Positions 1,046-40,482 of a stretch of DNA of 64,000 nucleotides are shown here, in pieces. The DNA is taken from contig MGDH01000004.1 of the NCBI GenBank assembly GCA_001790855.1, positions 2,350 to 66,349 of the forward strand. Direction: 5' to 3'. The first letter of the stretch is position 1. Each line of letters opens with the position of its first letter. This DNA comes from Candidatus Schekmanbacteria bacterium RIFCSPLOWO2_02_FULL_38_14. GTDB taxonomy: Bacteria > Schekmanbacteria > GWA2-38-11. The translations under genes and the position numbers were made by a program. The notes beneath the pieces are model-generated. The model did not search any database. It saw only the letters and a list, made by a program, of their open reading frames with translations, and was not told where the DNA came from.

Positions 1046-1145
1046 GTCATTGCGAGCGAAGCGAAGCAATCTCATCTTTTGCTACCAACTGACATTTGTC
1101 AACTCTGATGTGAGATTGCTTCGGGGCTTTGCCCCTCGCAATGAC
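1046..1145. repeat. GTCATTGCGAG palindromic element, copy 1
   Basis: An imperfect inverted repeat bounded by GTCATTGCGAG and CTCGCAATGAC. Internal arms are GCAATCTC and GAGATTGC, around a variable core. It lies between the SDR and aspartase genes. It is one of eight copies in the window, all intergenic. Confidence 0.9.
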
Positions 1146-6011: not shown

Positions 6012-6119
6012 GTCATTGCGAGCGACCAAAGGGAGCGTGGCAATCTCAGTTTTAGCTGTAAGCTGATAGCTGTCAGCTTTAAAGCGAGATTGCTTCGTCG
6101 CTTCGCTTCTCGCAATGAC
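6012..6119. repeat. GTCATTGCGAG palindromic element, copy 2
   Basis: Begins GTCATTGCGAGCGACCAAAG and ends CTCGCAATGAC; internal arms GCAATCTC and GAGATTGC. The core holds an AGCTGTAAGCTGATAGCTGTC tract, also seen in copies 5 and 6 and in an insertion inside ubiE. Short open frames here are translations of the repeat, not genes. Confidence 0.9.
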
Positions 6120-15779: not shown

Positions 15780-15883
15780 GTCATTGCGAGCGACCAAAGG
15801 GAGCGTGGCAATCTCGATTTTAAGCTGTCAGCATTCAGTCATCAGCTATTAGATGAGATTGCTTCGCTATCGCTCGCAATGAC
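15780..15883. repeat. GTCATTGCGAG palindromic element, copy 4
   Basis: Starts GTCATTGCGAGCGACCAAAG and ends GCTCGCAATGAC, with internal GGCAATCTC and GAGATTGC. The core contains AAGCTGTCAGCATTCAG. It lies between the convergent flavoprotein and histidine kinase genes. Confidence 0.9.
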
Positions 15884-20360: not shown

Positions 20361-20543
20361 TCAAAACTCCGCCTTGAACCCAACATCAAAAACCTGACTG
20401 CAGTTAGGACAGATTAGTTTTATTTTATATTTTGACTTTTCACTTCTTCCAGACCTTTCAAACATTATGTGAAAACCGTTTCTATAGCCGCATTTAGGGC
20501 AGACCTTGAAGCTTTTCCCTATTTTTTTCTTAACTGCCTTCAT
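20361..20543 (-). CDS. Small zinc-ribbon protein (60 aa)
   Basis: A 60-residue basic protein with two Cys knuckles: VCPKCGYRNG near 14-22 and ICPNCSQVF near 44-52, a zinc-ribbon pair about 30 residues apart. The family is not recognised. It is the last minus-strand gene downstream of the chelatase/metal operon, separated from the NicO-like gene by 189 bases containing a relic. It could be a nucleic-acid or metal-binding accessory; nothing in the sequence decides. Confidence 0.6.
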   Translation of the reverse strand: MKAVKKKIGKSFKVCPKCGYRNGFHIMFERSGRSEKSKYKIKLICPNCSQVFDVGFKAEF

Positions 20544-20655
20544 AAAAATATCCTTTTAATAAAATACTAACTACTGTTCACTGACTACTTATTTCAAACT
20601 CACAGCTTTTTTATCCCCAGCTCCTTCATCTTTCTCCAGTTCGACTTTCGACTTT

Positions 20656-20742
20656 TTAAAGTATCCAGTCCGGTTTCAGATGTTTGAAGCTTTCAAACTG
20701 GACAAGCGCCATGTAGATACCAAAAAGTGTTATTAGAATCCA
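20656..20742 (-). pseudogene. Relic C-terminal end of a second NicO-like gene
   Basis: In a frame different from the adjoining gene, the minus strand reads WILITLFGIYMALVQFESF and then a stop at 20656-20658. This matches the tail of the NicO-like protein beside it (VLIAIFGLYMALEELNHI) at most positions. The body of the second gene is absent. The likely history is a tandem duplication followed by deletion between the copies, leaving one full gene and one orphan tail. Confidence 0.55.
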
Positions 20743-21518
20743 GGCAATCCAAATCCATAAATATGATTAAGTTCCTCCAACGCCATATAAAGGCCAAAAA
20801 TAGCTATCAGAACCCCACTAATCCTTGTAAACATAACTTCATATTTTTCCTGATTCAACTTCTTCAAAAACATTGAAGCCCTGCCAATAAAATAGGTCAT
20901 TATCAAAACAACAAGCGTAGTAGCTATAGCGTAGGCTAAAAAAATTAACACACTGGAAAGAATGCTATCTGATTTAAGAGCTAATGTATACATTGGTAGA
21001 GTAGCAGGACACGGGAGAATCATATTGATAAAGCTTAGCGAAAACATTCCCCAGTAGATTCCGTGTTTAAATTTTTTCTTGCCTGGCTTTGCAGGTTTTT
21101 CTCTGTGGTCTTTGCTGTGGCTGTGGCTGGTTTCATGGCTATGGCTATGTCCATGGTCATGGTCGTGGTCATCATGTTCGTGGTCAAAATGAAGCCACGT
21201 CGGCTTAAATATTAGAATAATTCCAAGAATAATCAGAATACCTGCTGTGCCTGCCCCCATGTAAGCACTCCAGTTCATAGGGATGAAATCACCTATAACA
21301 CCAAAAGCTATCCCTAAAAGAATACAGGCAACAGTCGTTCCAGCGCAAAACATTAAACTTATATAGAACAGCTTTTTCATAGTCTTTGCAGTTATTGCAA
21401 AAGGCGCTAATATAGGCCATGAATGTTCACACGGACTTAAGCCATGGAGAAGCCCAAGAAGTATGGGCAGTCCTAACAGCCCCAAAATAGAAGTAAAATT
21501 AGAAATCACACCGTTCAT
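20733..21518 (-). CDS. NicO/UreH-like membrane protein with His-rich loop
   Basis: A 261-residue protein with six or so membrane segments. Between TM3 and TM4 a loop near residues 112-140 is packed with His and Asp (HEHDDHDHDHGHSHSH), as in nickel/cobalt efflux proteins of the RcnA/NicO group. The first helix has GLLHGLSPCEHSWPILAP and the fourth ILPCPATLP; paired Cys-Pro motifs at these places also occur in DsbD/CcdA-like transporters, so a thiol-redox transporter is the alternative. It follows the P-type ATPase gene, supporting a metal role. Ni or Co export is the favoured guess, not shown. Confidence 0.7.
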   Translation of the reverse strand: MNGVISNFTSILGLLGLPILLGLLHGLSPCEHSWPILAPFAITAKTMKKLFYISLMFCAGTTVACILLGIAFGVIGDFIPMNWSAYMGAGTAGILIILGIILIFKPTWLHFDHEHDDHDHDHGHSHSHETSHSHSKDHREKPAKPGKKKFKHGIYWGMFSLSFINMILPCPATLPMYTLALKSDSILSSVLIFLAYAIATTLVVLIMTYFIGRASMFLKKLNQEKYEVMFTRISGVLIAIFGLYMALEELNHIYGFGLPGF

Positions 21519-21535
21519 AAAATTTTCCCTTTCGT

Positions 21536-21620
21536 AAAAAAGGGTTCAAGGGGTCTAGGGTTCTAGGATTTAAGTGAAAATCAAATCCCAACCCTCGAAC
21601 CCTTGAATCCTCGAACCCCT
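21536..21620. repeat. GGGTTCAAGG-family repeat, inverted pair
   Basis: AAGGGTTCAAGGGGTCTAGG on one side and, inverted, CGAACCCTTGAATCCTCGAA on the other, with an AT-rich centre. It fills the 104-base gap between the P-type ATPase and NicO-like genes. The same family appears at 23576-23688, 47814-47835, 55375-55410 and 63877-63911. Confidence 0.8.
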
Positions 21621-21622
21621 GA

Positions 21623-23560
21623 TTAATCTTTATACTTGTACCCTATCAGCCTTGATGAATTCCCTACAACAACCAGAGAGCCTATGTTGTGAACAACTGC
21701 CCCTGCAACAGGACCTATTGTTCCAAAAGATGCAAGGAGAAGGGCAAAGGCATTTATGGCTATAGAAATAGCAAGGCTCTGTTTTATAATCTGGACAGTC
21801 TTCCTGCTAAGAGCGATCCCTTCCGTCACTTTTGCTATATCATCAGAGACAAGTGCAATATGGGCTGCTTCAATTGCTGCATCAGTTCCGATTGCGCCCA
21901 TTGCAATGCCAACATCTGCCATCGCAAGGGCCGGAGCATCATTTATTCCGTCTCCAACCATTGCAACCCTCTCTCCGCTATCTTTTAATTTTTTGATGTA
22001 ATCAACCTTTCCTTCAGGCAAAAGGTCAGCTACAATCTCGTCAAACCCGGCACCCCTTGCAGTAGCCTCAGCAGCTTTTTTGTTATCTCCGGTAAGAAGT
22101 ATTACCTTTTTTATTCCAAGAGACCTGATATCTTTTACTGTCTGAAAAACTTCTTCCTTTATTTTATCAGCTATGCTTATACCCCCTATTATTCTGTTAT
22201 CTCTTGAAACAAGGACTGATGTTTTCCCATCATCAAGCTCTCTGTTTATGAACTCATTTGCCTCATCAGGAATATCTACTCCCATTTCTTCATAAAGCCT
22301 TGTGTTTCCAACAAGTATTCTTTCTCCAAAAGCCATGGCTTCAACTCCCTTTCCAACAATTGCTCTTGTCTTTTCAGGAGACGGAACACTTATTCCAGAC
22401 TGCCCTGCTTTTTTAAGAATTGCCCCGCCAAGGGAATGTTCAGAATATTTTTCAGCAGTTGCAGCTATCTCCAGAACTTCAGACTCAGAAGCACTGTTAA
22501 ACCCCTTAATATTTTTCACCTCAGGAGTCCCATAAGTAAGAGTCCCTGTTTTATCAAACACAAAGGCTGAAAGCTTTCCCATTGCTTCAAGTGTTGCCCC
22601 GCCCTTAATTAAAATCCCTTTTCTTGCTGCATTGCCTATCCCTGCAACAACTGCTGTTGGAGTAGCTATTACAAGGGCACACGGGCAGGCAACTACAAGC
22701 ACAGTAACAGCCCTCAGAACACTCCCTGTCAGCAAATATACCATTATGGCAAGTGTTAACATTGATGGTGTAAACCAGGTTGAGAACCTGTCAGCAATTC
22801 TTTCAATTGGTGGTTTTGATGCCTGCGCTTTTTTCACAAGCTCAATTATCTTTGAAAGAGTCGTATCCTTTCCAATCTTTGTTGTTTTAATTATCAGAAC
22901 CCCTGCCCTGTTTATTGTCCCTCCGAAAACCTCATCACCCATCTTTTTGTAGACTGCCATTGATTCTCCGGTGATTGATGCCTGGTCAACCTCACCTTCT
23001 CCAACATCAATTATACCGTCAACAGGTATCCTTTCACCGGGTTTTACAACCACAAGGTCGCCAACCACGACTTCATCTATATCAACAACTGCTTCTTCCC
23101 TTCCCCTTATGACTGTTGCTGTTTCAGGAGATAATTCCATCAACTTTCTTATTGCCTGTCCTGTTCTTGCAATGGTTATATCCTCAAGGAGTTCTCCAAC
23201 ATTCATCATCAGGACAACAATTGCGCCTGCAAGGTATTCGCCAACCCGGATTGATGCAAAAAGAGCACACGCAACAAGAACCTCTGCATTGAGCTTTCTG
23301 TTTTCTATTGTTGAGATTATTGCATTTTTGACTATTGGATAACCGCTTAAAACAATTGCAACAAAAGAGAGGTTAATCCCAAAAGTGGTTTTATCAGAGC
23401 CTGAAATCCAGCTTGCAATTATAAAAATCACGGAAAGAACCGGGCTTAAAAAATCTTCCCATCTTTTAACAGCCTCTTCGAGCCCTCTGTGAGATTTATT
23501 CTCACGGGAATGCGAAGAAGCTGCCATCTCAATCAGACATTCCCTTGCTACATCATGCAT
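21623..23560 (-). CDS. P1B-type heavy-metal translocating ATPase
   Basis: About 645 residues from the ATG at 23558-23560 (GGAG five bases upstream; the frame extends five codons to a TTG). A metal exporter or importer energised by ATP. Seen, in numbering from the TTG: TGES at 202-205, the metal-binding CPC at 297-299, phosphorylated Asp341 in DKTGTLT, and GDGINDAPAL. There is no N-terminal HMA domain. The last helix reads HNIGSLVVVGNSSRL. The nearly invariant SEHPL is SEHSL here: one base changes Pro to Ser at residue 381. CPC excludes the cobalt SPC subgroup; Zn, Cd, Ni or Mn remain. It begins MHDVAREC, like the His-rich protein upstream. Confidence 0.9.
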   Translation of the reverse strand: MHDVARECLIEMAASSHSRENKSHRGLEEAVKRWEDFLSPVLSVIFIIASWISGSDKTTFGINLSFVAIVLSGYPIVKNAIISTIENRKLNAEVLVACALFASIRVGEYLAGAIVVLMMNVGELLEDITIARTGQAIRKLMELSPETATVIRGREEAVVDIDEVVVGDLVVVKPGERIPVDGIIDVGEGEVDQASITGESMAVYKKMGDEVFGGTINRAGVLIIKTTKIGKDTTLSKIIELVKKAQASKPPIERIADRFSTWFTPSMLTLAIMVYLLTGSVLRAVTVLVVACPCALVIATPTAVVAGIGNAARKGILIKGGATLEAMGKLSAFVFDKTGTLTYGTPEVKNIKGFNSASESEVLEIAATAEKYSEHSLGGAILKKAGQSGISVPSPEKTRAIVGKGVEAMAFGERILVGNTRLYEEMGVDIPDEANEFINRELDDGKTSVLVSRDNRIIGGISIADKIKEEVFQTVKDIRSLGIKKVILLTGDNKKAAEATARGAGFDEIVADLLPEGKVDYIKKLKDSGERVAMVGDGINDAPALAMADVGIAMGAIGTDAAIEAAHIALVSDDIAKVTEGIALSRKTVQIIKQSLAISIAINAFALLLASFGTIGPVAGAVVHNIGSLVVVGNSSRLIGYKYKD

Positions 23561-23575
23561 ATCTGCTCCAAACAA

Positions 23576-23688
23576 AAGGGTTCAAGGATTCGAGGGTTCA
23601 AGGAAAATACAAAGTAAAAAAATAAAAATATGGGGTTTGGGTTTATCTCACTTGATCCCTGGAATCCTTGACCCCTTGAACCCTTTTA
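23576..23688. repeat. GGGTTCAAGG-family repeat, inverted pair
   Basis: AAAGGGTTCAAGGATTCGAG at one end and, inverted, CCTTGACCCCTTGAACCCTT at the other, around an AT-rich centre. It fills the junction between the His-rich protein and P-type ATPase genes. Confidence 0.8.
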
Positions 23689-23690
23689 CT

Positions 23691-24395
23691 TCACTTATTC
23701 CACGAAAAATCCAATCTCAAAAAACTGCCAAGCAGAATTAAAAACAGAGTCACTGCCACATAGAACATCTGCCCATAAATCATGGCAATTATTAAAACAA
23801 GACTCACCGCCAAATCAGCATTAAATCTCTTTTCAATAATACCTCTTATAACTGAATTCTTTACCAGAGGGAAAAGTCCAATTACTGAAGCCATTACAAG
23901 AAACCCCCTGCCAAGAGTTCCACCCACCACACCAAGCCCGCTCAAAGCTGTCAGCAATCCGACAACAATAAGGGCAAACCAGTCCCTTGCAGGGTTATTG
24001 AACCATTTGTGTACAACGCTTGCCTCCTCCCTGTGGTGAACATGGTGATGAGAATGTAAAAGCTGGTGGCCATGATCATGAAGATGTTCAAAAGCCCTGT
24101 CAGAAAAAGTATCTCTCGGATGATTGTGATGGTGCTCATCCTCGTCTTCGTGGGCATGGTATTCTTCTTCTTCATGGTTGGAGTCGTGGTCATGACCTTG
24201 GTAATCCTCTTGTTCGCCGTGGTCGTGTTCTTCATCATCCTCATGCACATGCCTGAGTTCATAACCAGGATATTTTGATGCAAGCTTTTCATCGTGGTCA
24301 TGCTCGTCTCCATGAGAATGATGAGACTTCTTACTCACATGTTTTTTCTTTGACCCTTTATCTTCAAACAAAGAATCTCTTTTGACATCATGCAT
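23691..24395 (-). CDS. His-rich membrane protein, N-terminal half of a P1B-ATPase
   Basis: About 234 residues from the ATG at 24393-24395 (AGGAG eight bases upstream). The first 120 residues hold dozens of His with Asp and Glu, a clear metal-binding tail. Four hydrophobic segments follow and the protein ends. The membrane part aligns with the first helices of the ATPase encoded next: FPLVKNSVIRGIIEKRFNAD against YPIVKNAIISTIENRKLNAE, and both proteins start MHDV-R. The actuator, phosphorylation and CPC parts are missing. It is thus a truncated duplicate, possibly reused as a metal buffer or partner subunit. No frame continues it into ATPase sequence. Confidence 0.8.
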   Translation of the reverse strand: MHDVKRDSLFEDKGSKKKHVSKKSHHSHGDEHDHDEKLASKYPGYELRHVHEDDEEHDHGEQEDYQGHDHDSNHEEEEYHAHEDEDEHHHNHPRDTFSDRAFEHLHDHGHQLLHSHHHVHHREEASVVHKWFNNPARDWFALIVVGLLTALSGLGVVGGTLGRGFLVMASVIGLFPLVKNSVIRGIIEKRFNADLAVSLVLIIAMIYGQMFYVAVTLFLILLGSFLRLDFSWNK

Positions 24396-24429
24396 GGCTA
24401 ATTCTCCTGAATATTTCATTAACATTAAA

Positions 24430-24502
24430 GGACAGCCAAGACGGCTATCCTACATTAGTAAATAATTTATTCTAAACCAGTAGGACAGGCGTCCCGCCTG
24501 TC
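24430..24502. repeat. Divergent pair of REP-like palindromes (GTAGGACAGG family)
   Basis: GTAG followed by GACAGGCG-TCC-CGCCTGTC at 24480-24502, and on the other strand GTAG followed by GATAGCCG...GGCTGTC at 24430-24453. The two point away from each other, as in BIME structures. The GTAG foot is the hallmark of REP elements moved by RAYT transposases. The pair occupies the junction between the His-rich gene and the third ChlI gene. Confidence 0.65.
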
Positions 24503-24514
24503 ATGTTATAATAT

Positions 24515-25708
24515 TTATTTTGCACCTTGAACCTTTGCTTTTTTCTTCGTAGCTTTTGCCTTTACTTTTTCAAGTTTAATTAGCTTCCCCTTCTTCTTTT
24601 CAGCCGCACTCTTTTCTTCCATCTCTTTAGCATATTCCATTACCTGTTTGAATTTCTCAACACCCAGTGCTGCATTTTCAAATGGAGTCCTTCTCATCCT
24701 GAACCCTAAAGTCATCTCACTTGCAAGCCTGATGTCATCTTCGTTGACCTCTGTCCTGCTATCATAGGCAGCCTTTGCCTTTGAACCTCTTGTTATGATT
24801 ATGTCAGGCCTGTGACCGTCAACATCAAGTTCTATGCACATCCTTGCTATTATTCTCAGAAAATGCTTATCCATATTAACTTTTGGAAGCAGTTCCTTTG
24901 CATGAATTATACGCTTTGTTATATCCCTGTTTGCAATCTCATATTTTTCTTTAAAAAGAATTGGATCCTTTTCAAACTCCTGAATATGCTTTACAATCTG
25001 AAGTCTGCTGTTCAAATCATGGACCCCTTTTACCGCAACGTGGAATGCCATGCGGTCATGGAGCTGAGGCCTCAATTCCCCTTCATCAGGATTCATTGTG
25101 CCAACAAGCATAAAACTTGCAGGATGGGAAACCGATACCCCTTCCCTTTCAACAATGTTGACTCCCATTGCCGCAGAATCAAGAAGCACATCCATTACAT
25201 GGTCATCAAGAAGGTTAATGTTGTCAATATAGAGAATCCCGCGGTTTGCTTCAGCAAGTATTCCAACATCAAGGGCTTTAACTCCCTCTTTGATAGCTCT
25301 TTCTATGTTCAGAGTTCCGACAACCCTGTCCTCAGTTGCACCAACAGGAAGCTCTGCTATGTGCATCTTCTGCATCACAGATGGAAGTTTCTCCCCCTTC
25401 TCAAATTTTGACCTGCATATAGAGCACATCTTGCTTATATCCCTTGCGTCACATCTGAATTTGCAGTTCTTCACCACTTCTATTTCAGGAAGAACATCTG
25501 CAAGTCCCCTCACAGCCACTGTCTTGCCGCTCCCTCTCTCCCCTCTTACGAGTACTCCCCCAATCTGTGGATTGATGGCATTAAGGATTAAGGCTAACTT
25601 CATCTTCTCCTGCCCTATTATTGCTGAAAAGGGAAAATTGGTCCTTCCTGTTGTAAATCTCTTTGATTCAGTTTCATGTTTTTCTAAAGCTAAGGCTTTC
25701 TTTGACAT
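24515..25708 (-). CDS. ChlI/BchI-like AAA+ ATPase with altered Walker B
   Basis: About 397 residues from the ATG at 25706-25708, preceded by GGAGGAGAAG. An AAA+ chelatase ATPase with Walker A GERGSGKT at residues 65-72 of the longer frame, and a four-Cys insert (CKFRC...CSIC) at 91-107. Walker B reads [12 protein letters not shown]: the catalytic Glu is Asn172 (codon 25220-25222), whereas both sister genes have [17 protein letters not shown] keeps the arginine-finger region. The tail is Lys-rich. It would bind but hardly hydrolyse ATP. It is third of three I-type genes downstream of the BchH-like gene; a regulatory or structural ring subunit is a sensible inference. Confidence 0.85.
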
Positions 25709-25762
25709 TACTTCTCCTCCAAATTTCTTGTACATAGAAATTTATTAAAAATTCCCGACTAT

Positions 25763-25879
25763 GTCATTGCGAGGAGCAAAGCGACGAAGCAATCTCATCT
25801 TTTAGCTGTTAGCTGACAGCTGTCAGCTTTTCAATGAGATTGCCACGCCCATTCGGTAAGCTCATGGGCTCGCAATGAC
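25763..25879. repeat. GTCATTGCGAG palindromic element, copy 5
   Basis: GTCATTGCGAGGAGCAAAGC at one end, GGCTCGCAATGAC at the other; internal AGCAATCTC and GAGATTGCC. The core is an AGCTGTTAGCTGACAGCTG tract. It lies between the ChlI-ChlD and third ChlI genes. Confidence 0.9.
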
Positions 25880-25938
25880 ACCATCAAAAACAAAATTTTT
25901 CATTAACCTTGCTAATTTCATAAAATCCTAAATTATAT

Positions 25939-27999
25939 TCACACGGCAGCCTGATGGCTTATTTTATCCAAGACAAAATTCTTCTCCATTGTTATCAATG
26001 TCCCCAGACTCTGCTGGTCTAACTGGTCAATCCTGAAATACTTTGCCCCCATCTTCTCCGCAATGTCTTTTGCAAATTCAAAGGAAAAATTCAGAAACCT
26101 CATATTCTTTGTAACCTCTGTATCAATAACTATTGAATAGATACCTTCAACATTTATCATCTCTGCCAGTTTTTCTATTTCCTCCATTGGGTCAGCACCC
26201 GGAATTATTGAAATGTTAGCCCTGCCGTCTGTTAAAAGAACCATGATTGGAATGATTGTTTCATCTTTTTTTCTCTCATTCTTTATAAGGTTAAGAGCCT
26301 TCATAAGCCCGAGGGCAAGGGGTGTTTTCCCGCCTGTTGGCAAATCAGTCAAAAGCTTTTTTGCAAGCTCAACTCCGTTTGTCGGAGGAAGGATTACCTG
26401 CGCATCATTCCCCCTGAAAGCAATCATCGCAATTCTGTCTCTGCTCTGGTAGGCATCCATGAGAAGCGAAAATACCGTTCCCTTTGCGCACTCCATCCTG
26501 TCAAGCGCTCCCATTGTACCGCTTGCATCAACAACCATAACAATAAGAGAGGAAACCTTGCTCTGCCTCACTTTGCCCCTTATGTCTTCACTGTGTATGA
26601 TTATTGCGTGGTTTGTTTCTGCCTTTTCTCTTCTGGTTTTCTGATGGGGTGCTGAAGCCCTGACAGTCGCATCAAATGCTATATCAGTGATAGTTCCCTT
26701 GGGAATATTGTGCTTTATATATCTTCCCTTCCTTCCAACAGAGATAGATTTTATTCTTTTCCCGGAGCCTGAACGCATTTTGCGGTCAGCCTTTCTTTTT
26801 GTCATATCCTTTGGTATCTGGACAGGTGTCCCGATTCTGTGAATCTTTCCTTCAACTTTTTCTTTCTGTTCCTCTGTTGGTTCAAGGTCAGGCTTGTCCT
26901 CATTTTCCGGCGGAAAAAAATCATCCATATCCTTGCTGAGTTCATCCACAAGCTGGTCAATTATGTCATCTGATGCAGCATCATTTCCAAAAGGATTTGC
27001 CCTCATCCTGAATGGGAATATCAACTCCCCTGCTCTTTTTATGTCATCCTTTGTAAGCTCTGTTCTTCCGTTGTATGCTGCAAGTGTGGCAGCTGTTTTG
27101 GCAACCATCGTATCAGGCCTGTGCCCTTCAATATCAAGCTCCTTGCACATCTTGCAAATAAGTATCAGGATATTGTCTGATATATTTATCTCCCTTAAAA
27201 TCTTCTGGGCTTTTTCAATCTTTTTTGCAAGCCTCCTGCTTTCACTCTCAAACTTCTCGCTGAAAGCAACAGGGTTTGCTTCAAATTCATTCCTTAAAGA
27301 TACAATTTTGACACGCTCATCCACATCATCAATTCCCTTTACATCAATGTGGAGTGCAATCCTGTCAAGAAGCTGAGGCCTGAGCTCCCCTTCCTCGGGA
27401 TTCATTGTTCCCACAAGAATAAACCTTGACGGATGAGAGAACGAAATTCCTTCTCTCTCAACAACATTGACACCTGAAGTAGATGCATCAAGAATCACAT
27501 CAATCACATGGTCATCCAGAAGATTAATTTCATCAACGTAGAGTATTCCCTGATTGACTTCTGCAAGTATTCCCGGCTCAAGTTCTTTTTTCCCTAACTT
27601 CACAGCTTTCTCAAGGTCAAGGCTTCCGAGAAGCCTGTCTTCAGTTGAGCCAAGAGGAAGATCAACAACTTTAATCCTTCTCTTTTCCGCTTCAATTCTT
27701 CTTCCCCTTCCGGAAGCCTTTTCCAGAACCCTTTCCTTGCAGTAAGGGCACAGTTCAGTAAAAATATGAGGATTACAGCTAAACGGACACCCCCTTACCA
27801 CATCTACCTTTGGAAGAATCTCAGCAAGGGCTCTGACTGCTGTTGACTTCCCTGTTCCCTTTTCTCCCCTTATCAGAACACCGCCAACCTGTGTATTAAT
27901 GGCATTAAGAATAAGCGCCAATTTCATACTCTCCTGCCCTACAAGGGCTGCAAAGGGATACAGAATCCTTTCTACGCGTTGTATTTTTTCCACAGACAA
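25939..27999 (-). CDS. Chelatase ChlI-ChlD fusion (AAA+ with VWA domain)
   Basis: A 686-residue protein combining an I-type AAA+ ATPase and a D-type von Willebrand A domain. Walker A GEKGTGKS is at 45-52, the four-Cys insert at 71, 75, 84 and 87, and Walker [12 protein letters not shown] at about 150. An acidic/proline stretch at about 370-385 precedes a basic linker and the VWA domain with MIDAS DASGTMG at about 488. In Mg- and Co-chelatases the I and D rings drive metal insertion by the H/CobN subunit, encoded two genes upstream. Length and fusion match cobaltochelatase-type D subunits of non-phototrophs as well as BchD. Confidence 0.9.
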   Translation of the reverse strand: MSVEKIQRVERILYPFAALVGQESMKLALILNAINTQVGGVLIRGEKGTGKSTAVRALAEILPKVDVVRGCPFSCNPHIFTELCPYCKERVLEKASGRGRRIEAEKRRIKVVDLPLGSTEDRLLGSLDLEKAVKLGKKELEPGILAEVNQGILYVDEINLLDDHVIDVILDASTSGVNVVEREGISFSHPSRFILVGTMNPEEGELRPQLLDRIALHIDVKGIDDVDERVKIVSLRNEFEANPVAFSEKFESESRRLAKKIEKAQKILREINISDNILILICKMCKELDIEGHRPDTMVAKTAATLAAYNGRTELTKDDIKRAGELIFPFRMRANPFGNDAASDDIIDQLVDELSKDMDDFFPPENEDKPDLEPTEEQKEKVEGKIHRIGTPVQIPKDMTKRKADRKMRSGSGKRIKSISVGRKGRYIKHNIPKGTITDIAFDATVRASAPHQKTRREKAETNHAIIIHSEDIRGKVRQSKVSSLIVMVVDASGTMGALDRMECAKGTVFSLLMDAYQSRDRIAMIAFRGNDAQVILPPTNGVELAKKLLTDLPTGGKTPLALGLMKALNLIKNERKKDETIIPIMVLLTDGRANISIIPGADPMEEIEKLAEMINVEGIYSIVIDTEVTKNMRFLNFSFEFAKDIAEKMGAKYFRIDQLDQQSLGTLITMEKNFVLDKISHQAAV

Positions 28000-28009
28000 C
28001 CTTCTCTGA

Positions 28010-28125
28010 GTTTAAAATCCAAAGTTCAAAATCCAAATGTCAAATAAATCTCAAATATCAAAATAAAAAAAATAAGTAATTTTTAAATTTGACATTCATT
28101 TGAAATTTGAAATTTACCTATAGAT
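28010..28125. repeat. AT-rich AAATCCAAA/AAATTTGAAATTT repeat tract
   Basis: AAAATCCAAAGTTCAAAATC and CAAATGTCAAATAAATCTC on one side, inverted TTTGACATTCATTTGAAATT on the other. This is the same dispersed AT-rich family seen at 8.2 and 9.5 kb and in the tail of the gene at 62.2 kb. It fills the gap between the ChlI and ChlI-ChlD genes. Confidence 0.7.
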
Positions 28126-28133
28126 AATTTAAA

Positions 28134-29210
28134 TCATACCTCTGCATATGTCCTGTTAACAATATCTTCAAAAATATCCACTGTCTTTTCATCGCTTTTA
28201 AACATAGTCTTCCTTGTTCTGAATGGAAGTATCAGTTTTACAGCCTCTTTAACATCATCCCTTGTAATCCTTTTCTTTCCTCTGAATGCAGCAAGGGTTT
28301 TGACTGTCTTGACAATCATTGCATCAGGCCTGTGCCCTTCAACTTCCAGCTCATTGCAGATATTGCAGATAATTCTTAAAAGGCTTTCATCTGTCTTAAC
28401 TTTTTCCATAAGCTTCTGAGTAGTTATTATTTTTTTTCTTAACTCCTCGCTCTGCTTTTCAAATTTTTTGCTGAACGCCATCGGGTCTTTCTCAAACTCA
28501 TTCCTGAGAATGGTTATCTTCACCCTCTCATTAACACTCTTTAAACCCTCTACATCTATATGAAGGGCAATCCTGTCAAGAAGCTGAGGTCTGAGTTCCC
28601 CCTCTTCTGGATTCATTGTTCCAACAAGGATAAACCTTGACGGATGGGAAAATGAAATTCCCTCTCTTTCAACAACATTTACTCCGGAGGTTGCTGTATC
28701 AAGAAGCATATCCACAACATGGTCATCAAGAAGATTTATTTCATCAACATAGAGAATCCCGCGGTTAACATCAGCCAGTATTCCCGGCTCAAGCTCTTTT
28801 TTTCCGCTTTTTATGGCTTTCTCGATATCAAGGCTTCCAAGAAGCCTGTCTTCTGTTGAGCCAAGAGGAAGGTCAACGACCTTCATCTTCCGCTTCTCCG
28901 TTGGAACCTTGCCGCCGTTCCACTCGCCTCTTTCAACCTTCTCCATGCAATACGGGCACATCTCCGAAGTCCTTTTTGGATTGCAGTTAAAAGGGCATCC
29001 CTTTATCACTTCAATCTCTGGAAGAACCTCAGCAAGGGCTCTGACAGCAGTAGATTTTCCTGTCCCTTTTTCTCCTCTTACAAGAACTCCTCCGACCTGA
29101 GGATTAATGGCATTAAGAAGCAGAGCAAGCTTCATCCCCTCCTGTCCAACTATGGCTACAAAAGGGTATAGAATCCGTTTAAAGCGTTCTTTAGAACTAT
29201 TACTTCCCAT
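28134..29210 (-). CDS. Magnesium/cobalt chelatase ATPase subunit I
   Basis: About 358 residues from the ATG at 29208-29210 (AGGAGG ten bases upstream; a TTG three codons earlier is too close to it). A canonical ChlI/BchI AAA+ ATPase: Walker A GEKGTGKS, Cys insert CPFNC...[26 protein letters not shown], Walker [29 protein letters not shown] with the arginine finger. It supplies ATP hydrolysis for metal insertion. It is the gene next to the BchH-like subunit. The AAA+ half of the ChlI-ChlD fusion is closely similar, so the pair probably arose by duplication. Confidence 0.92.
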
Positions 29211-29250
29211 TATCTTCAAACCTCCTAATTTCTCTTCTAAAATCTCTTTT

Positions 29251-29350
29251 CACCCTCCCCTTAATCCCCTCCTGTCAAGGGAGGGGAAGTAAAGGAATAT
29301 CACTGCTCACTACCCTCTCCCCTTGCGGGAGAGGGACAGGGTGAGGGGTT
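29251..29350. repeat. C/G-rich hairpin repeats (CCCTCTCCC type)
   Basis: Two adjacent units: CCCTCCCCTTAATCCCCTCC...GGGAGGGG near 29253-29287, then a hairpin with arms CCCTCTCCC (29313-29321) and GGGAGAGGG (29327-29335) followed by ACAGGGTGAGGGGT. It occupies the junction between the BchH-like and ChlI genes. Confidence 0.75.
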
Positions 29351-29356
29351 TCCCCT

Positions 29357-32300
29357 CTATTCCTCCTGCTCTTCAATCTGGGATTCAATCTCAAGATATA
29401 TCTGCTTTAATTTTTCCAGTTCCTCAGGAGATGCCTCCCATTTCCCTCTGTTATAAGCCTCCATCAGGCGGTTAAGGGAATGTTCTACAGCCCAGATATT
29501 TTCCTGCATCATCTTCTTTCTTACTTCATCATCAAACATATACTTTTCAGCCACACCGCTCCATACCCAGTTATCAACAGAACCCGCAGTAACAGACCAC
29601 CCAAGTAAGTGTTCAACCCTCTGGCCAATATTTCTTATTCCTTTGTAACCGCTGTCAATCTGGCCTTTTATCCATTCAGGATTCAAAAGTTTTGTTTTTG
29701 CTTCATAATCAAGGGTTGACCTTATGCTTTTAGTCTTAATTTTATCTCTTGTGCTGTCCGCAACAAGAATTGTAGGCATGGTTTTGCCTCTTCCAGGATT
29801 CTTCTTCCTCACAGTCTCAACAGACTTTGAAAGACCTCCAAGAAATTCATAGTAATGGTCCAAATCTGCCATACCGTATTCCTCACTGCTTCTTACCTGA
29901 GCAACAACATCTACTTTATCAAGCACCTCTTTGAATGTATCAACACTTGAGAAGGCGTGGAATTTGTCACCATAGATATGAGCCATTTTTGATATGTGCA
30001 AATCTGCTATCTGGCTTTCATCCTCCCATTCAGAGGTTTCAATTATCTGTGTTACATCAGTTCCATAATTGGATGAAGAGGGACCGAAAATTCTTGCCTG
30101 TGCAAGGCTTTCTGCCTGTTCTTTTGGCACTCCCTTGCCTTCAAGAACTTTCTGGATTTCAAGCGAGTGCTTCCTCATAAAATTCTGCCCAGATGGCTCA
30201 TCAAGAGAGGCAACAATTTTAAATGCCCGGTCAATCATTCTTAAAAGCAGGGGAAAGGTATCCCTGAATATACCGCATATCTCAACAACAACATCTACTC
30301 TTGGTCTGCCGAGTTCCTTGAGAGGAATTGGAGAGACTCCGACAAAACCACCAACCCCCGACCACCTTGGCTTCACACCAAGGAGCCTGAAAATCTCAGC
30401 CACTGTTTCACCCTGCGTTTTCATTGTTTCAAATCCCCACAGGATGACAGCAACAGTTTCAGGCAAATTATTGTCATTTTCTGCCTTATAGTTTTCAATA
30501 ACCTGATCAGCTATTGCCTCTCCCCTCTCACATGCAAGTGGTGTTGGTATGAGGTCAGGATTGAACTGATATATATTCCTTCCGGTTGGAACAACACTTG
30601 GGCTCCTGATTGGGTCTCCGCCAAGTCCCGGAGGAATATATGAACCCTTCATTGCCTCTATAAGGGCTTCACCCTCTTTATTGGAAGATAAACTCTTTGC
30701 AAAGGTCTTGGCAAACTCCAGAGTTTTCTCAAATTCTTCCGCATGCTCTGTCTTGAGTTTAAACTTAACATTCTTTTTTATAAGCTTTTTGACAGGAGAA
30801 TTATTTTGAATCACCAGAGAAAGAATACTTCTTGCATCCTTATCTATTTCATCTAAAACCGCTCCCATCAGTTTGCCGCCTTTAGTTATTTTTGACGGAG
30901 TTGTGCGGGCTTCATCCCAGTCTATCCCTCTTGAAGCAGCAATCATCTTGTGAAGCGACACCATATCGCCCCTGTCAAACCTCACGACTCCAAGAACATA
31001 ATTTATTAACTCTTCTCCATTCAGAGAGTCTCCAAGCACATGAACTCCCTTGGTCATCATGCTCCCTTTCATCTCATTAAGGGAATCATAGAGCTTATTG
31101 ATATCAACATCCGCAGCCTCTACATCAACCATGTTTGCTTCCTTTGCCTTATCAAGTATCCCCTCTTTTATTTTCTTAGCCTGCGCAGGACTCTGCTCCT
31201 TCTGTTGGAAAAAATTATGGATATCCATTTCAAGCTCTGCATATTTTCCGTAAAGGTCAGAGATTATCATTGGTGGAGTCATATAATCTACCGTCGTGGC
31301 ATATATTCTCCTTTTCGCTATTGAGGATTCAGATGGATTGCTGCAGGTATAAAAATACAGATTTGGAAGATTTCCTATAAGAATGTCAGGATAACAGGTC
31401 TTGGACATTGCAACATGCTTTCCGGGAAGAAACTCAAGTGTTCCGTGAGTTCCAAAATGCAGTATGGCATCAGCCCTGAAAGTATCTTCAATCCATCTGT
31501 AAAAAGCAAGGTACTGATGGTGCGGAACAATTGCCTGGTCATGGTATGTCTTTGAAGGGTCTTCAAAATATCCGCGGGGTGGCTGGAAACCTACAAATAC
31601 ATTTCCAAAAGCGATTCCGGGAACGAATATGTTTTTATCATCACACATTATTTTCCCCGGAGGATCACCCCAAGCTCCTATCATCTCATCCTGACAGGAC
31701 TTTGGCACATTTTCAAACCATTTTTTATAATCATCAAGCGACACCTTGAAAGAATTTTCCTTTACCTTTTGTAGCGCTGTCCAGTTGCTCTGGTTAATTA
31801 TATTTTTCTTTGTAACAAGCCTGATAAATTCATGCCTTGTTCTTGGATAGCCCGAAACAACATATCCATCATCTTTCATTTTATCCAAAAGCCTTATAAT
31901 ACTTTCAAATGTATCAAGGTTTCCTGCACTGCCCAGATTATCTTTTCCCGGAGGGTAGTTGAAAAGAACTATTGCAACCTTTTTATCCTTGTTCTGCTTA
32001 TGTCTCAGCTTAATCCAGTTAACTGTCCTTGCTACAGCCTTATCAACCCTGTCCTCAATCGGTTCCATTATTCTTACTATGTTTTTCCCTGTTGATATAT
32101 CCCTGTGTCCTGCAACCAGCAATCCCTCAATCAAGCCATCAAGCTCAGGAAGAATTACTGTTATTGTGGTCTCAAGCGGAGCCATTCCCTCTGGCTTTTC
32201 CTTCCATTCATCAATGGTTGTATACCCCATGCACAGATAGTGTATGAATGGAATATTCATCTTCTTGCAGAGATTCACAAAACCCTCATAGTCCCCTCCA

Positions 32301-33247
32301 AGCGGACCTCCCTCTATGCGGAAGAAAAGGAAGCTTATGATGGCGTCAACAGTTGGCCCCTTCTCATTAATGAAATGCCTTTTGATATTGCGAACATTTT
32401 CAGAGCCTTCTGAGAGCACTGTAACGACTCTAACTCCCTTTTCCTCTAACTTTTCAATAACCATGTTCAGGTCTTTTATGTCTTCACTCTGGTAGCGCTG
32501 CAGATAAAAAAGTATCCCGATAAGGGGTCTTTTTTTCCATCCATTGTTTTTTACAAGGTTTGTTTTATCATACCATTTCAGGTATTCATCAAGCGAGAGA
32601 AAAAAGTCCTGGGCTTTTGGATGGTAGATAGCTGTTGGCGGAACTTCTACAGGGTCTTTATAGCTGACTTTGTAGCCATAATATTCTGCCATTATAAAGT
32701 AGAGCATATTTATAATGTTTTCTCTTCCACCCTTGTAAAAATATTTCCACAACCTGACATAGTTGCCGGCATCCTTCCATTTTCCAAACCTCAATACCTT
32801 TAAAAACACATCAGATATCTCAAGAAGTTTTCTCACTTCCATTGGGCTTTTGCTGCTTACCATAAGCCCTTTCAGAACTGACAACACCTTCATTATTTTT
32901 GATTCTGCAACAGCATCAACAAGCTCACCAAGTTTGAATTTTCCGAGTTTTGTAAGCTTGATTCCCCTTGGAACCGAGGCAAGAACAATGAATGATTTCT
33001 CCTTATTGTGGTACTTCTCAAGAATGGCAAGAACAACATCATCAAAAACCATATTAACAATTATTACATCTGCCTTTGAAACATTCTCCTCCATCTGATC
33101 CAGCTGTTTTTTGGAAAACGGCTGATGTCTCAGACAGAACTGATAAGTAAGTTCCACTTCCCCCTTGAACATCTCTTTTAATTTATCTGATGCATCTGAG
33201 AATGATTTGCTGAAGGTATAATCACCAACTATGGCAGTAATATGCAT
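29357..33247 (-). CDS. BchH/CobN-family chelatase large subunit
   Basis: A 1296-residue porphyrin- or corrin-binding chelatase subunit. The N-terminal region (about 1-190) matches the BchH-type domain: PRGIKLTKLGKFKLGEL and KDAGNYVRLWKYFYKGGREN correspond to the LNKLGSFSM and ARxYxLxLxFWLGGxxDN regions of BchH. The metal/porphyrin segment HFGTHGTLEFLPGKH is near residue 596, and the end has TAGSVDNWVWSGVAEKY...NIWAVEHSL. BchH family is thus favoured over CobN, but the metal (Mg, Co, Ni) is not readable. It lies 30 bases after marR and heads the I, ID, I genes. No bch, puf or cob biosynthesis genes are nearby. Confidence 0.9.
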   Translation of the reverse strand: MHITAIVGDYTFSKSFSDASDKLKEMFKGEVELTYQFCLRHQPFSKKQLDQMEENVSKADVIIVNMVFDDVVLAILEKYHNKEKSFIVLASVPRGIKLTKLGKFKLGELVDAVAESKIMKVLSVLKGLMVSSKSPMEVRKLLEISDVFLKVLRFGKWKDAGNYVRLWKYFYKGGRENIINMLYFIMAEYYGYKVSYKDPVEVPPTAIYHPKAQDFFLSLDEYLKWYDKTNLVKNNGWKKRPLIGILFYLQRYQSEDIKDLNMVIEKLEEKGVRVVTVLSEGSENVRNIKRHFINEKGPTVDAIISFLFFRIEGGPLGGDYEGFVNLCKKMNIPFIHYLCMGYTTIDEWKEKPEGMAPLETTITVILPELDGLIEGLLVAGHRDISTGKNIVRIMEPIEDRVDKAVARTVNWIKLRHKQNKDKKVAIVLFNYPPGKDNLGSAGNLDTFESIIRLLDKMKDDGYVVSGYPRTRHEFIRLVTKKNIINQSNWTALQKVKENSFKVSLDDYKKWFENVPKSCQDEMIGAWGDPPGKIMCDDKNIFVPGIAFGNVFVGFQPPRGYFEDPSKTYHDQAIVPHHQYLAFYRWIEDTFRADAILHFGTHGTLEFLPGKHVAMSKTCYPDILIGNLPNLYFYTCSNPSESSIAKRRIYATTVDYMTPPMIISDLYGKYAELEMDIHNFFQQKEQSPAQAKKIKEGILDKAKEANMVDVEAADVDINKLYDSLNEMKGSMMTKGVHVLGDSLNGEELINYVLGVVRFDRGDMVSLHKMIAASRGIDWDEARTTPSKITKGGKLMGAVLDEIDKDARSILSLVIQNNSPVKKLIKKNVKFKLKTEHAEEFEKTLEFAKTFAKSLSSNKEGEALIEAMKGSYIPPGLGGDPIRSPSVVPTGRNIYQFNPDLIPTPLACERGEAIADQVIENYKAENDNNLPETVAVILWGFETMKTQGETVAEIFRLLGVKPRWSGVGGFVGVSPIPLKELGRPRVDVVVEICGIFRDTFPLLLRMIDRAFKIVASLDEPSGQNFMRKHSLEIQKVLEGKGVPKEQAESLAQARIFGPSSSNYGTDVTQIIETSEWEDESQIADLHISKMAHIYGDKFHAFSSVDTFKEVLDKVDVVAQVRSSEEYGMADLDHYYEFLGGLSKSVETVRKKNPGRGKTMPTILVADSTRDKIKTKSIRSTLDYEAKTKLLNPEWIKGQIDSGYKGIRNIGQRVEHLLGWSVTAGSVDNWVWSGVAEKYMFDDEVRKKMMQENIWAVEHSLNRLMEAYNRGKWEASPEELEKLKQIYLEIESQIEEQEE

Positions 33248-33277
33248 ACTTTCCTCCTCAAGAAATTAACTTATAAC

Positions 33278-33754
33278 CTATCCAATTTTTTTAAGTATCT
33301 GGCTTGCCTTCTCAAGATTCTTTATGAGCTCATCCCAATCCTCACTGCTAAGTTTGCTGAAGATATTTTCAAGCTCTTCCCTTCTTCGTTCCATAAATTC
33401 CTTTCGCATCTTCTTACCCTTTTCTGTCAATTTAACCCGCACAACCCTTCTATCATCAGGGTCTCTCCATCTTTCCACTATACCAACCTCTTCTAAACCA
33501 TCTATCATCTCGGTCATACTCGGCATTGCTACCTGAATATTTCTGCTCAACTCTCCCATGGTGTAGTCTTTATCTTCTTTAAAGGCTGATAAGGCTTTAA
33601 GCTGTGAAAGGTTGAAATCAAACTTTAGCTTTTCCTTGTCAATGCTTATTACACGATTGGTAAACTCAACAAAAAACTCCCTGACTTTTGATATCTGGCT
33701 TTCTAATTTGTCAATTTGCTGTATTGTCGCAAAGGCTTTATTTGAATCACCCAT
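33278..33754 (-). CDS. MarR-family transcriptional regulator
   Basis: A 158-residue winged-helix regulator: LSQLKALSAFKEDKDYTMGELSRNIQVAMPSMTEMIDGLEEVGIVERWRDPDDRRVVRVKLTEKG has the typical order, with the DxRxxxVxLTxxG wing. It has no obvious metal-binding cluster. It is the first gene of the chelatase/metal operon, and a palindrome lies 52 bases upstream of its start. It probably represses its own operon and responds to a tetrapyrrole, metal or related ligand (inference). Confidence 0.9.
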   Translation of the reverse strand: MGDSNKAFATIQQIDKLESQISKVREFFVEFTNRVISIDKEKLKFDFNLSQLKALSAFKEDKDYTMGELSRNIQVAMPSMTEMIDGLEEVGIVERWRDPDDRRVVRVKLTEKGKKMRKEFMERRREELENIFSKLSSEDWDELIKNLEKASQILKKIG

Positions 33755-33784: not shown

Positions 33785-33817
33785 GAATAATTAGTTTTAT
33801 AATAATTAGTTTACTAA
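33785..33817 (-). promoter_or_regulatory. Candidate MarR operator: repeated TAATTAGTTT sites
   Basis: AATAATTAGTTT occurs at 33787-33797 and again at 33801-33812. The second copy forms a palindrome TTAGT-TT-ACTAA at 33806-33817, upstream of the marR start at 33754. Palindromes of this AT-rich type are typical MarR operators. A third related AATAATTTAGTTT is near 33870. No footprint evidence is available; the whole region is AT-rich, so chance is possible. Confidence 0.4.
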
Positions 33818-34270
33818 ATATTATATACCTAATTAAATTCTTGTCAAGTAGATTTTAAAATTTTTTTTTAAAATAATTTAGTTTTTACAATCACATAAAC
33901 ATTAAGATATGACAGCAAAATTTATTAATTTTTAAATACAACTTAACTATATGATATATTGTATTATTTTAAATATTATGCCAATTATATGACAATATTG
34001 ATGTCAATCTATTGGCACATATTATATATTTAACATATTGATTTATAATATAGTTTATGGAAAGAAATTTTATTTCAACTTTTTTTTCTGTAAAAAATTA
34101 AACTATAAACAACTAACTATTATAGTAGAAAATATAATTATAATTAAAATACAAAGAGTTATTCCTCTTGTTAAAAAGATGGCACATCTTTTGCTATTTA
34201 TATAAATCTAAGTTATACAAGATTTTATTAAATTTTCATTTAACCCTCTTCTTTAATAAGGAGATCTTTT
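33818..34270. other. AT-rich 450-base non-coding stretch
   Basis: Very AT-rich, with no open frame longer than about 30 codons having a ribosome binding site, and no tRNA-like or strong hairpin structure. It separates marR (minus) from a small plus-strand gene. It presumably contains the promoter regions of both; clear -35/-10 pairs could not be singled out against the AT background. Confidence 0.6.
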
Positions 34271-40386: not shown

Positions 40387-40482
40387 GTCATTGCGAGAAG
40401 CGATAGCGACGAAGCAATCTCATTTTCAAACTTTCGGCTAAAAGATTAGGAAGGGAGATTGCTTCGCTTCGCTCGCAATGAC
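40387..40482. repeat. GTCATTGCGAG palindromic element, copy 7
   Basis: Begins GTCATTGCGAGAAGCGATAG and ends CTTCGCTCGCAATGAC; internal AGCAATCTC and GAGATTGC. It lies about 20 bases upstream of the ubiE start, in the divergent gap between the aminotransferase and ubiE genes. Confidence 0.9.

Follow-up and report, generated by a model that had tools for sequence, protein, structure and literature searches.

The CobN/ChlH superfamily includes the H subunit of magnesium chelatase (BchH/ChlH), which works with I and D AAA+ partners, the cobaltochelatase CobN, encoded next to cob genes, and the heme dechelatase HmuS/BtuS of Bacteroidota. HmuS is membrane-anchored, carries a Met-rich insertion and a Met79/His254 heme site, has no I or D subunit and is encoded within hmuYRSTUV together with TonB-dependent import. 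Its His-538 and its pair His-1209/Glu-1212 surround the presumed iron-removal site, and His-538 is essential (PMC12583661). Outside three small groups, the function of most proteins of this superfamily is not known (PMC12583661). Here we describe an eight-gene run that brings together an H subunit of such an orphan lineage, its AAA+ partners, a MarR-family regulator and metal-transport proteins. It lies between 33754 and 20733 on the minus strand of a 64,000-nucleotide stretch (the window; contig MGDH01000004.1, positions 2,350 to 66,349) of Candidatus Schekmanbacteria bacterium RIFCSPLOWO2_02_FULL_38_14. The assembly, 2.68 Mb in size and 99.4% complete, has a single H gene, and the window is part of its contig C4. 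The run probably encodes a porphyrin-handling H/I/D complex that stands outside bacteriochlorophyll and B12 synthesis and is functionally tied to metal efflux. As for its reaction, we favour, at somewhat less than even confidence, a process in which ATP drives the removal or exchange of the metal in a scavenged porphyrin, most likely heme, and the divalent metal set free is exported. The features are the following:

33801..33847, minus strand: sigma-70-type promoter, with TTGACA at 33842-33847, a 16-base spacer and TATAAT at 33820-33825
33788..33835, no strand assigned: inverted repeat over the -10 element, predicted MarR operator; core TTTAGTAAACTAA, arms 33788-33810 and 33813-33835, 87% complementary
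33278..33754, minus strand: MarR-family repressor, 158 aa, PF01047
29357..33247, minus strand: H subunit of a BchH-type class I chelatase, 1296 aa, predicted cytosolic
28134..29219, minus strand: I1, ChlI AAA+ ATPase with intact Walker A and B
25939..27999, minus strand: ID, ChlI-ChlD fusion with intact Walker motifs and a VWA metal ion-dependent adhesion site (MIDAS; DASGT..T..D)
24515..25735, minus strand: I2, second ChlI, Walker-B Glu replaced by Asn (YIDN), likely start 25708
23691..24395, minus strand: His-rich membrane protein, truncated P1B-ATPase paralogue with an MHD N-terminus, a His-rich insert and a membrane part, catalytic domains absent
21623..23560, minus strand: P1B-ATPase, CPC in transmembrane helix 4 (TM4), HNIGS in TM6
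20733..21518, minus strand: NicO/DsbD_2-like membrane protein with a His-rich loop, accessory, not conserved

All eight genes, which an earlier note on this DNA had placed in one direction and assigned to families, were found on the minus strand by family-model matches. H, I and D are encoded together, and the note's claim of a full chelatase that stands apart from photosynthesis and from B12 synthesis is supported. Probable true starts are ATG 23560 for the P1B-ATPase, ATG 24395 for the His-rich protein and an ATG at about 25708 for I2.

The H protein scores 1186 bits with PF02514, carries the PF11965 (DUF3479) head and reaches 1064 bits with the BchH model TIGR02025 (cut-off 829); CobN models score it lower (724-805 bits for the best two). 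It matches solved ChlH over its full length, from which its fold follows. It is thus like BchH/ChlH in fold, length, DUF3479 head, I and D AAA+ partners and the porphyrin-type His of the second active-site motif. Its place in a tree, which the earlier note had asked for, was examined with 36 H proteins in IQ-TREE (rooted at the midpoint only): it falls outside CobN and also outside the phototroph BchH/ChlH clade. Its lineage (support 99/97) comprises the window H, those of G002 and G003 (genomes of two other genera), one from a metagenome-assembled genome (MAG), a second G002 paralogue and G017. This lineage is sister (96/94) to the phototroph clade (100/100) and apart from CobN and from HmuS, whose rows form a clade of their own. 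In an approximately unbiased (AU) test, forcing the window group with the BchH1 rows was rejected (p=0.0002). The score above the TIGR02025 equivalog cut-off would suit an ordinary magnesium chelatase from a cryptic or lost bacteriochlorophyll pathway, but the AU test speaks against nesting with phototroph BchH, and the conserved partners of H are metal pumps, not bch genes. The earlier note had seen no other bacteriochlorophyll gene nearby, and none was detected genome-wide: there was no match to a NifD-like protein (PF00148), the BchM (TIGR02021) and BchE (TIGR02026) models stayed under cut-off, and BchN/B and HemE were not found. On the absent bch and HemE matches, the tree and the AU test, the bacteriochlorophyll pathway was rejected; already disfavoured, it keeps only a very slight probability.

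Among the active-site residues, the first catalytic motif HFGTHG is intact (H601) and the second reads LDHYYEFLGG in the window lineage (H1131, E1134). Both motifs are shared with HmuS/BtuS, including the H..E pair of LDHxxEFxGG (LDHVYEFMGG in HmuS); H601 corresponds to His-538 of HmuS, and H1131/E1134 to His-1209/Glu-1212. Elsewhere, this second-site pair is mostly H..D in phototroph BchH/ChlH and D..Q or D..A in CobN. Because its H..E pair matches HmuS and not CobN, H looks like a porphyrin enzyme rather than a corrin enzyme. Membership in HmuS was nevertheless rejected, given the separate clade and the absent membrane anchor. In contrast to HmuS, the window H is predicted to be cytosolic, with no membrane helix (maximal 19-residue hydropathy 1.73 versus 2.97 in a Bacteroides HmuS), is shorter than the proteins of the two HmuS loci considered (1296 versus 1360-1560 aa) and is accompanied by I1, ID, I2 and an export pump. 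Salvage or remodelling of corrinoids, with cobalt put into, or taken from, imported corrinoids, also has to be considered. CobN has a homologous H fold, the best model for ID is the putative cobaltochelatase subunit TIGR02442 (731 bits, under the 779 cut-off), and in other genomes H superfamily genes adjoin TonB/ABC importers. Yet H is outside CobN and lacks the CobN D..Q pair, and the operon holds neither an importer nor a cobalamin gene, which makes this explanation improbable. TP_methylase matches in the window genome are only a HemD-CobA fusion and RsmI, and a cobalamin pathway was rejected on this content, the position of H in the tree and the H..E pair.

Two further observations were made on H proteins. 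The second G002 paralogue (L036/L037, G002:C3:420609-424502) is 52% identical to the window H and has no I/D or metal genes adjoining it. A separate H clade carries CC at the second active-site motif (for example GCCGYF or SCCSFF) and contains L018, L019, L020, L024 and L009 (G113, G263, G259, G149 and G041); the neighbours of the members checked are TonB-receptor-like and ABC-importer-like genes (G113, G041) or another apparent outer-membrane gene (G259).

The AAA+ proteins I1, ID and I2 match ChlI/ChlD models, with the nucleotide-binding motifs intact in I1 and ID. In I2 Walker A is kept, and the Walker-B Glu is replaced by Asn in all four sequences (window, G002, G003 and the MAG, L002). 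Loss of this Glu in AAA+ proteins should permit ATP binding yet impair hydrolysis, so I2 is probably able to bind ATP and is not expected to hydrolyse it. Besides being a sister lineage with H..E rather than the usual H..D and no bch genes detected around it, the window system thus differs from BchHID/ChlHID by this changed I2 and by the coupling to P1B efflux.

The gene order is conserved in relatives. G003, from another family of the same order, has MarR-H-I1-ID-I2-His-rich protein-P1B-ATPase in the window order with small gaps, and G002 has the same seven genes plus, between H and I1, a MATE transporter whose N-terminus is rich in His. Identity to the window proteins in these two genomes is 65-66% for H, 68-75% for I1 (in G002 measured on part within one locus), 72% for ID, 73-77% for I2, 58-60% for the P1B-ATPase and 35-44% for the His-rich protein; for MarR it is 57% in G003 and 55% in G002. 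Downstream flanking genes common to G002 and G003 are not present at the window locus, and because these flanks differ, the cluster must have stayed together as its surroundings changed. This retained synteny rejects an accidental neighbourhood for the seven-gene core; it was accepted for the NicO-like gene, which has no meaningful match in the G002 and G003 loci. The coupling of chelatase to metal transport, as the earlier note had put it, is therefore real, being conserved with the P1B-ATPase and the His-rich protein. The H gene is absent from G001, a genome of the window's own family that is 70% complete. Relatives of H with more than 50% identity were found in the same order and on one MAG contig only, and one scan of genome contigs gave a sole relative, on a short contig.

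The P1B-ATPase scores 603 bits with TIGR01525, and CPC, DKTGT and GDGINDAP are present in all three orthologues; no N-terminal HMA domain was found in it. Its TM6 motif HNIGS aligns with HEGST of 7qbz (P1B-4-like TM6), while TM4 has CPC, and its alignment to the copper pump CopA stops before TM6. Judged from these motifs, a divalent metal is more likely as substrate than Cu(I). P1B-ATPases pump metal out of the cytoplasm. Since the conserved transporter is of this efflux type, and conservation does not extend to the NicO gene, the metal-supply role proposed earlier is unlikely. The NicO/UreH-like His-loop protein of that proposal is present as a gene, although its assignment does not stand: NicO gives 21.5 bits (cut-off 27.7), RcnA is weak (41.5 against 195), and DsbD_2 fits better with 54 bits. 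Two parts of the P1B-ATPase recur in the His-rich protein, an MHD..R N-terminus and a membrane stretch (72 columns aligned by hhalign, 95% probability, E 3.5e-8), whereas the actuator, phosphorylation and nucleotide domains are missing. The His-rich proteins contain 31 to 50 His each, mostly between the N-terminus and the membrane stretch. The most fitting origin for the window protein is a P1B-ATPase that was duplicated and truncated and became a membrane metal-binding partner of the pump. The CtpC-PacL1 zinc efflux platform of Mycobacterium likewise combines a P1B-ATPase with an adjoining small membrane-bound His-containing metal-binding protein; PacL1 is a DUF1490 protein, whereas the window partner derives from the P1B-ATPase itself (PMC9374683).

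Upstream of marR, the window genome, G002 and G003 all show TTGACA, 16 or 18 bases, TAATATTTAG and then a palindrome, which lies over or beside the -10 element in the three genomes. The MarR protein has the PF01047 winged helix-turn-helix domain, and repression of its own promoter is the natural reading of this arrangement. The conserved promoter and palindrome agree with the inducible control of the operon by MarR that had been suggested. Since MarR has neither His nor Cys in the window genome and in G003, the usual transition-metal sensing is unlikely, and an organic ligand seems more plausible than a transition metal. This bears on another explanation, a metal-stress module in which the chelatase deposits a surplus of toxic metal in a porphyrin, or senses metal or porphyrin, while the P1B-ATPase and its His-rich partner export metal. 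The truncated P1B partner beside the pump does recall the zinc efflux pair PacL1-CtpC, and further His-rich transporters occur (the NicO-like protein in the window genome, MATE in G002). A MarR without metal-binding His or Cys does not fit, and a 1296-residue ATP-driven chelatase would be a costly sink. We know of no precedent for such a module and consider it unlikely.

The tetrapyrrole genes of the window genome are informative for the favoured metal removal or exchange. The siroheme branch is present (HemB, HemC, HemD-CobA and precorrin-2 dehydrogenase). HemE was not found in the window genome by the same search that found it in G002 and G003. AhbD was not found there either, with a best score of 141 bits versus 475 in G003 and 413 in G001, both near the cut-off. 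To our knowledge, every known heme route requires HemE or AhbD. A published account names three heme routes (PMC10320005). At the same time, the window genome encodes heme users: three ResB-CcsA pairs, multiheme cytochromes and a b-type cytochrome. It therefore appears to need heme that it cannot make by known routes, although this would change with an as yet unknown route, or with a gene located where the assembly is incomplete. Against the earlier idea of metallo-tetrapyrrole synthesis, no known porphyrin-making route has matches in the genome beyond uroporphyrinogen/precorrin-2, so that an imported porphyrin, salvaged or demetallated, fits better than synthesis. The only PF00762 match, a 478-aa protein with a hydrophobic N-terminus, was rejected as a canonical HemH (26.7 versus the hemH cut-off of 124.6). 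Such weakly HemH-like proteins of 478-515 aa with a hydrophobic N-terminal stretch occur in all four genomes of the order (L072:9324-10760 on G000:C42; matches in G001-G003), and in the window genome the gene adjoins that of a CrtI/protoporphyrinogen-oxidase-like flavoprotein. A cluster on G000:C21 (L106:115-9920) encodes a cytochrome b close to ExtP of selenite/tellurite reduction operons, a Rieske-like protein, an octaheme cytochrome and ResB-CcsA.

The main rival is a chelatase working forward, which would make a dedicated metallo-tetrapyrrole by loading one of the divalent metals Mg, Zn, Co and Ni into a porphyrin or a ring of the sirohydrochlorin type, with the P1B-ATPase removing competing metals. 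In its favour are the H/I/D set, ATP-dependent and complete like those of the Mg and Co chelatases, the sister position of H to BchH, the siroheme branch and the NifH/NifD-like proteins of G002 and G003, of a kind that reduces tetrapyrroles. Nevertheless, the operon lacks a tailoring enzyme, Nif-like genes and HemE were not found in the window genome, and a pump that exports metal does not feed a chelatase. This alternative is possible but doubtful. Being in G002 and G003 and not in the window genome, the Nif-like reductases were rejected as obligate partners of the operon. Both genomes have two tandem NifH-like plus NifD-like genes and a separate NifE/NifD-like gene elsewhere (G002: L074:8985-12023 and L073:9308-10735; G003: L077 and L078). 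Their products score under all named nitrogenase, BchLNB and CfbCD cut-offs and may be an uncharacterised nitrogenase-like reductase.

For metal removal or exchange the following mechanism can be proposed, in which the porphyrin, the direction of the reaction, the metal, its export and the MarR ligand are the inferred parts. In the cytoplasm, H would hold the metalloporphyrin with H601 on one side and H1131/E1134 on the other. Power for the reaction would come from the AAA+ ring, I1 and ID being active and I2 binding ATP, probably without hydrolysis. The freed divalent metal, probably Fe(II) and possibly Zn or Co, would be gathered by the His-rich truncated P1B paralogue, and the P1B-ATPase would then pump it out. 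MarR may be released by an organic ligand, plausibly the porphyrin. In its most specific form, a soluble AAA+-driven heme (metalloporphyrin) dechelatase with export of the released metal, the proposal would be a class I chelatase run in reverse by heme-using bacteria apparently unable to make heme; this form is tentative.

Several points weigh against it. The H..E pair is also found in a Chloroflexota-type BchH (L032) and is therefore no proof of the direction of the reaction. We know of no dechelatase that uses I/D subunits, and H is predicted to lack a membrane helix whereas HmuS is membrane-bound and NADH-dependent. There is no hmu operon or TonB heme import in the operon or its near flanks, and no search aimed at heme importers was made. 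An iron-short cell should retain iron rather than export it, so the favoured model needs an excess of heme or metal. Finally, HemE-like and AhbD-like genes accompany the operon in G003, and heme auxotrophy is thus not its general partner.

Around the genes, the intergenic gaps of the operon hold repeats in the window genome, where these gaps are wider. Short dispersed intergenic elements with CATTGCGAG at their borders occur on both strands of the window (1048-1143, 6014-6117, 15782-15881, 25765-25877 and 40389-40480), and CCTTGAACCC repeats are found in several gaps, including the operon interior. An Rfam search of the window gave zero matches. Directly downstream of the NicO-like gene is a 60-residue zinc-ribbon open reading frame with CPKC and CPNC motifs (20361-20543), whose end is the left edge, 20361, that the earlier note had given to the island.

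All parts of this operon come from known families. The literature searches made found no published description of such an operon, and as far as we could find, neither the H lineage, the Walker-B-changed I protein, the pump-derived His-rich partner nor the fixed efflux coupling has been described. One caution for annotation is that the BchH equivalog model would call the window H a magnesium chelatase though chlorophyll genes were not detected. The predicted solubility of the H/I/D proteins opens the direction, the metal and the porphyrin to direct assay with E. coli. An orphan H lineage thus gains a fixed context, consisting of a regulator, three AAA+ subunits and a metal pump whose His-rich partner derives from the pump itself. 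Its active-site His pair predicts porphyrin as the substrate class, and the genome context is one of heme use without known heme synthesis.

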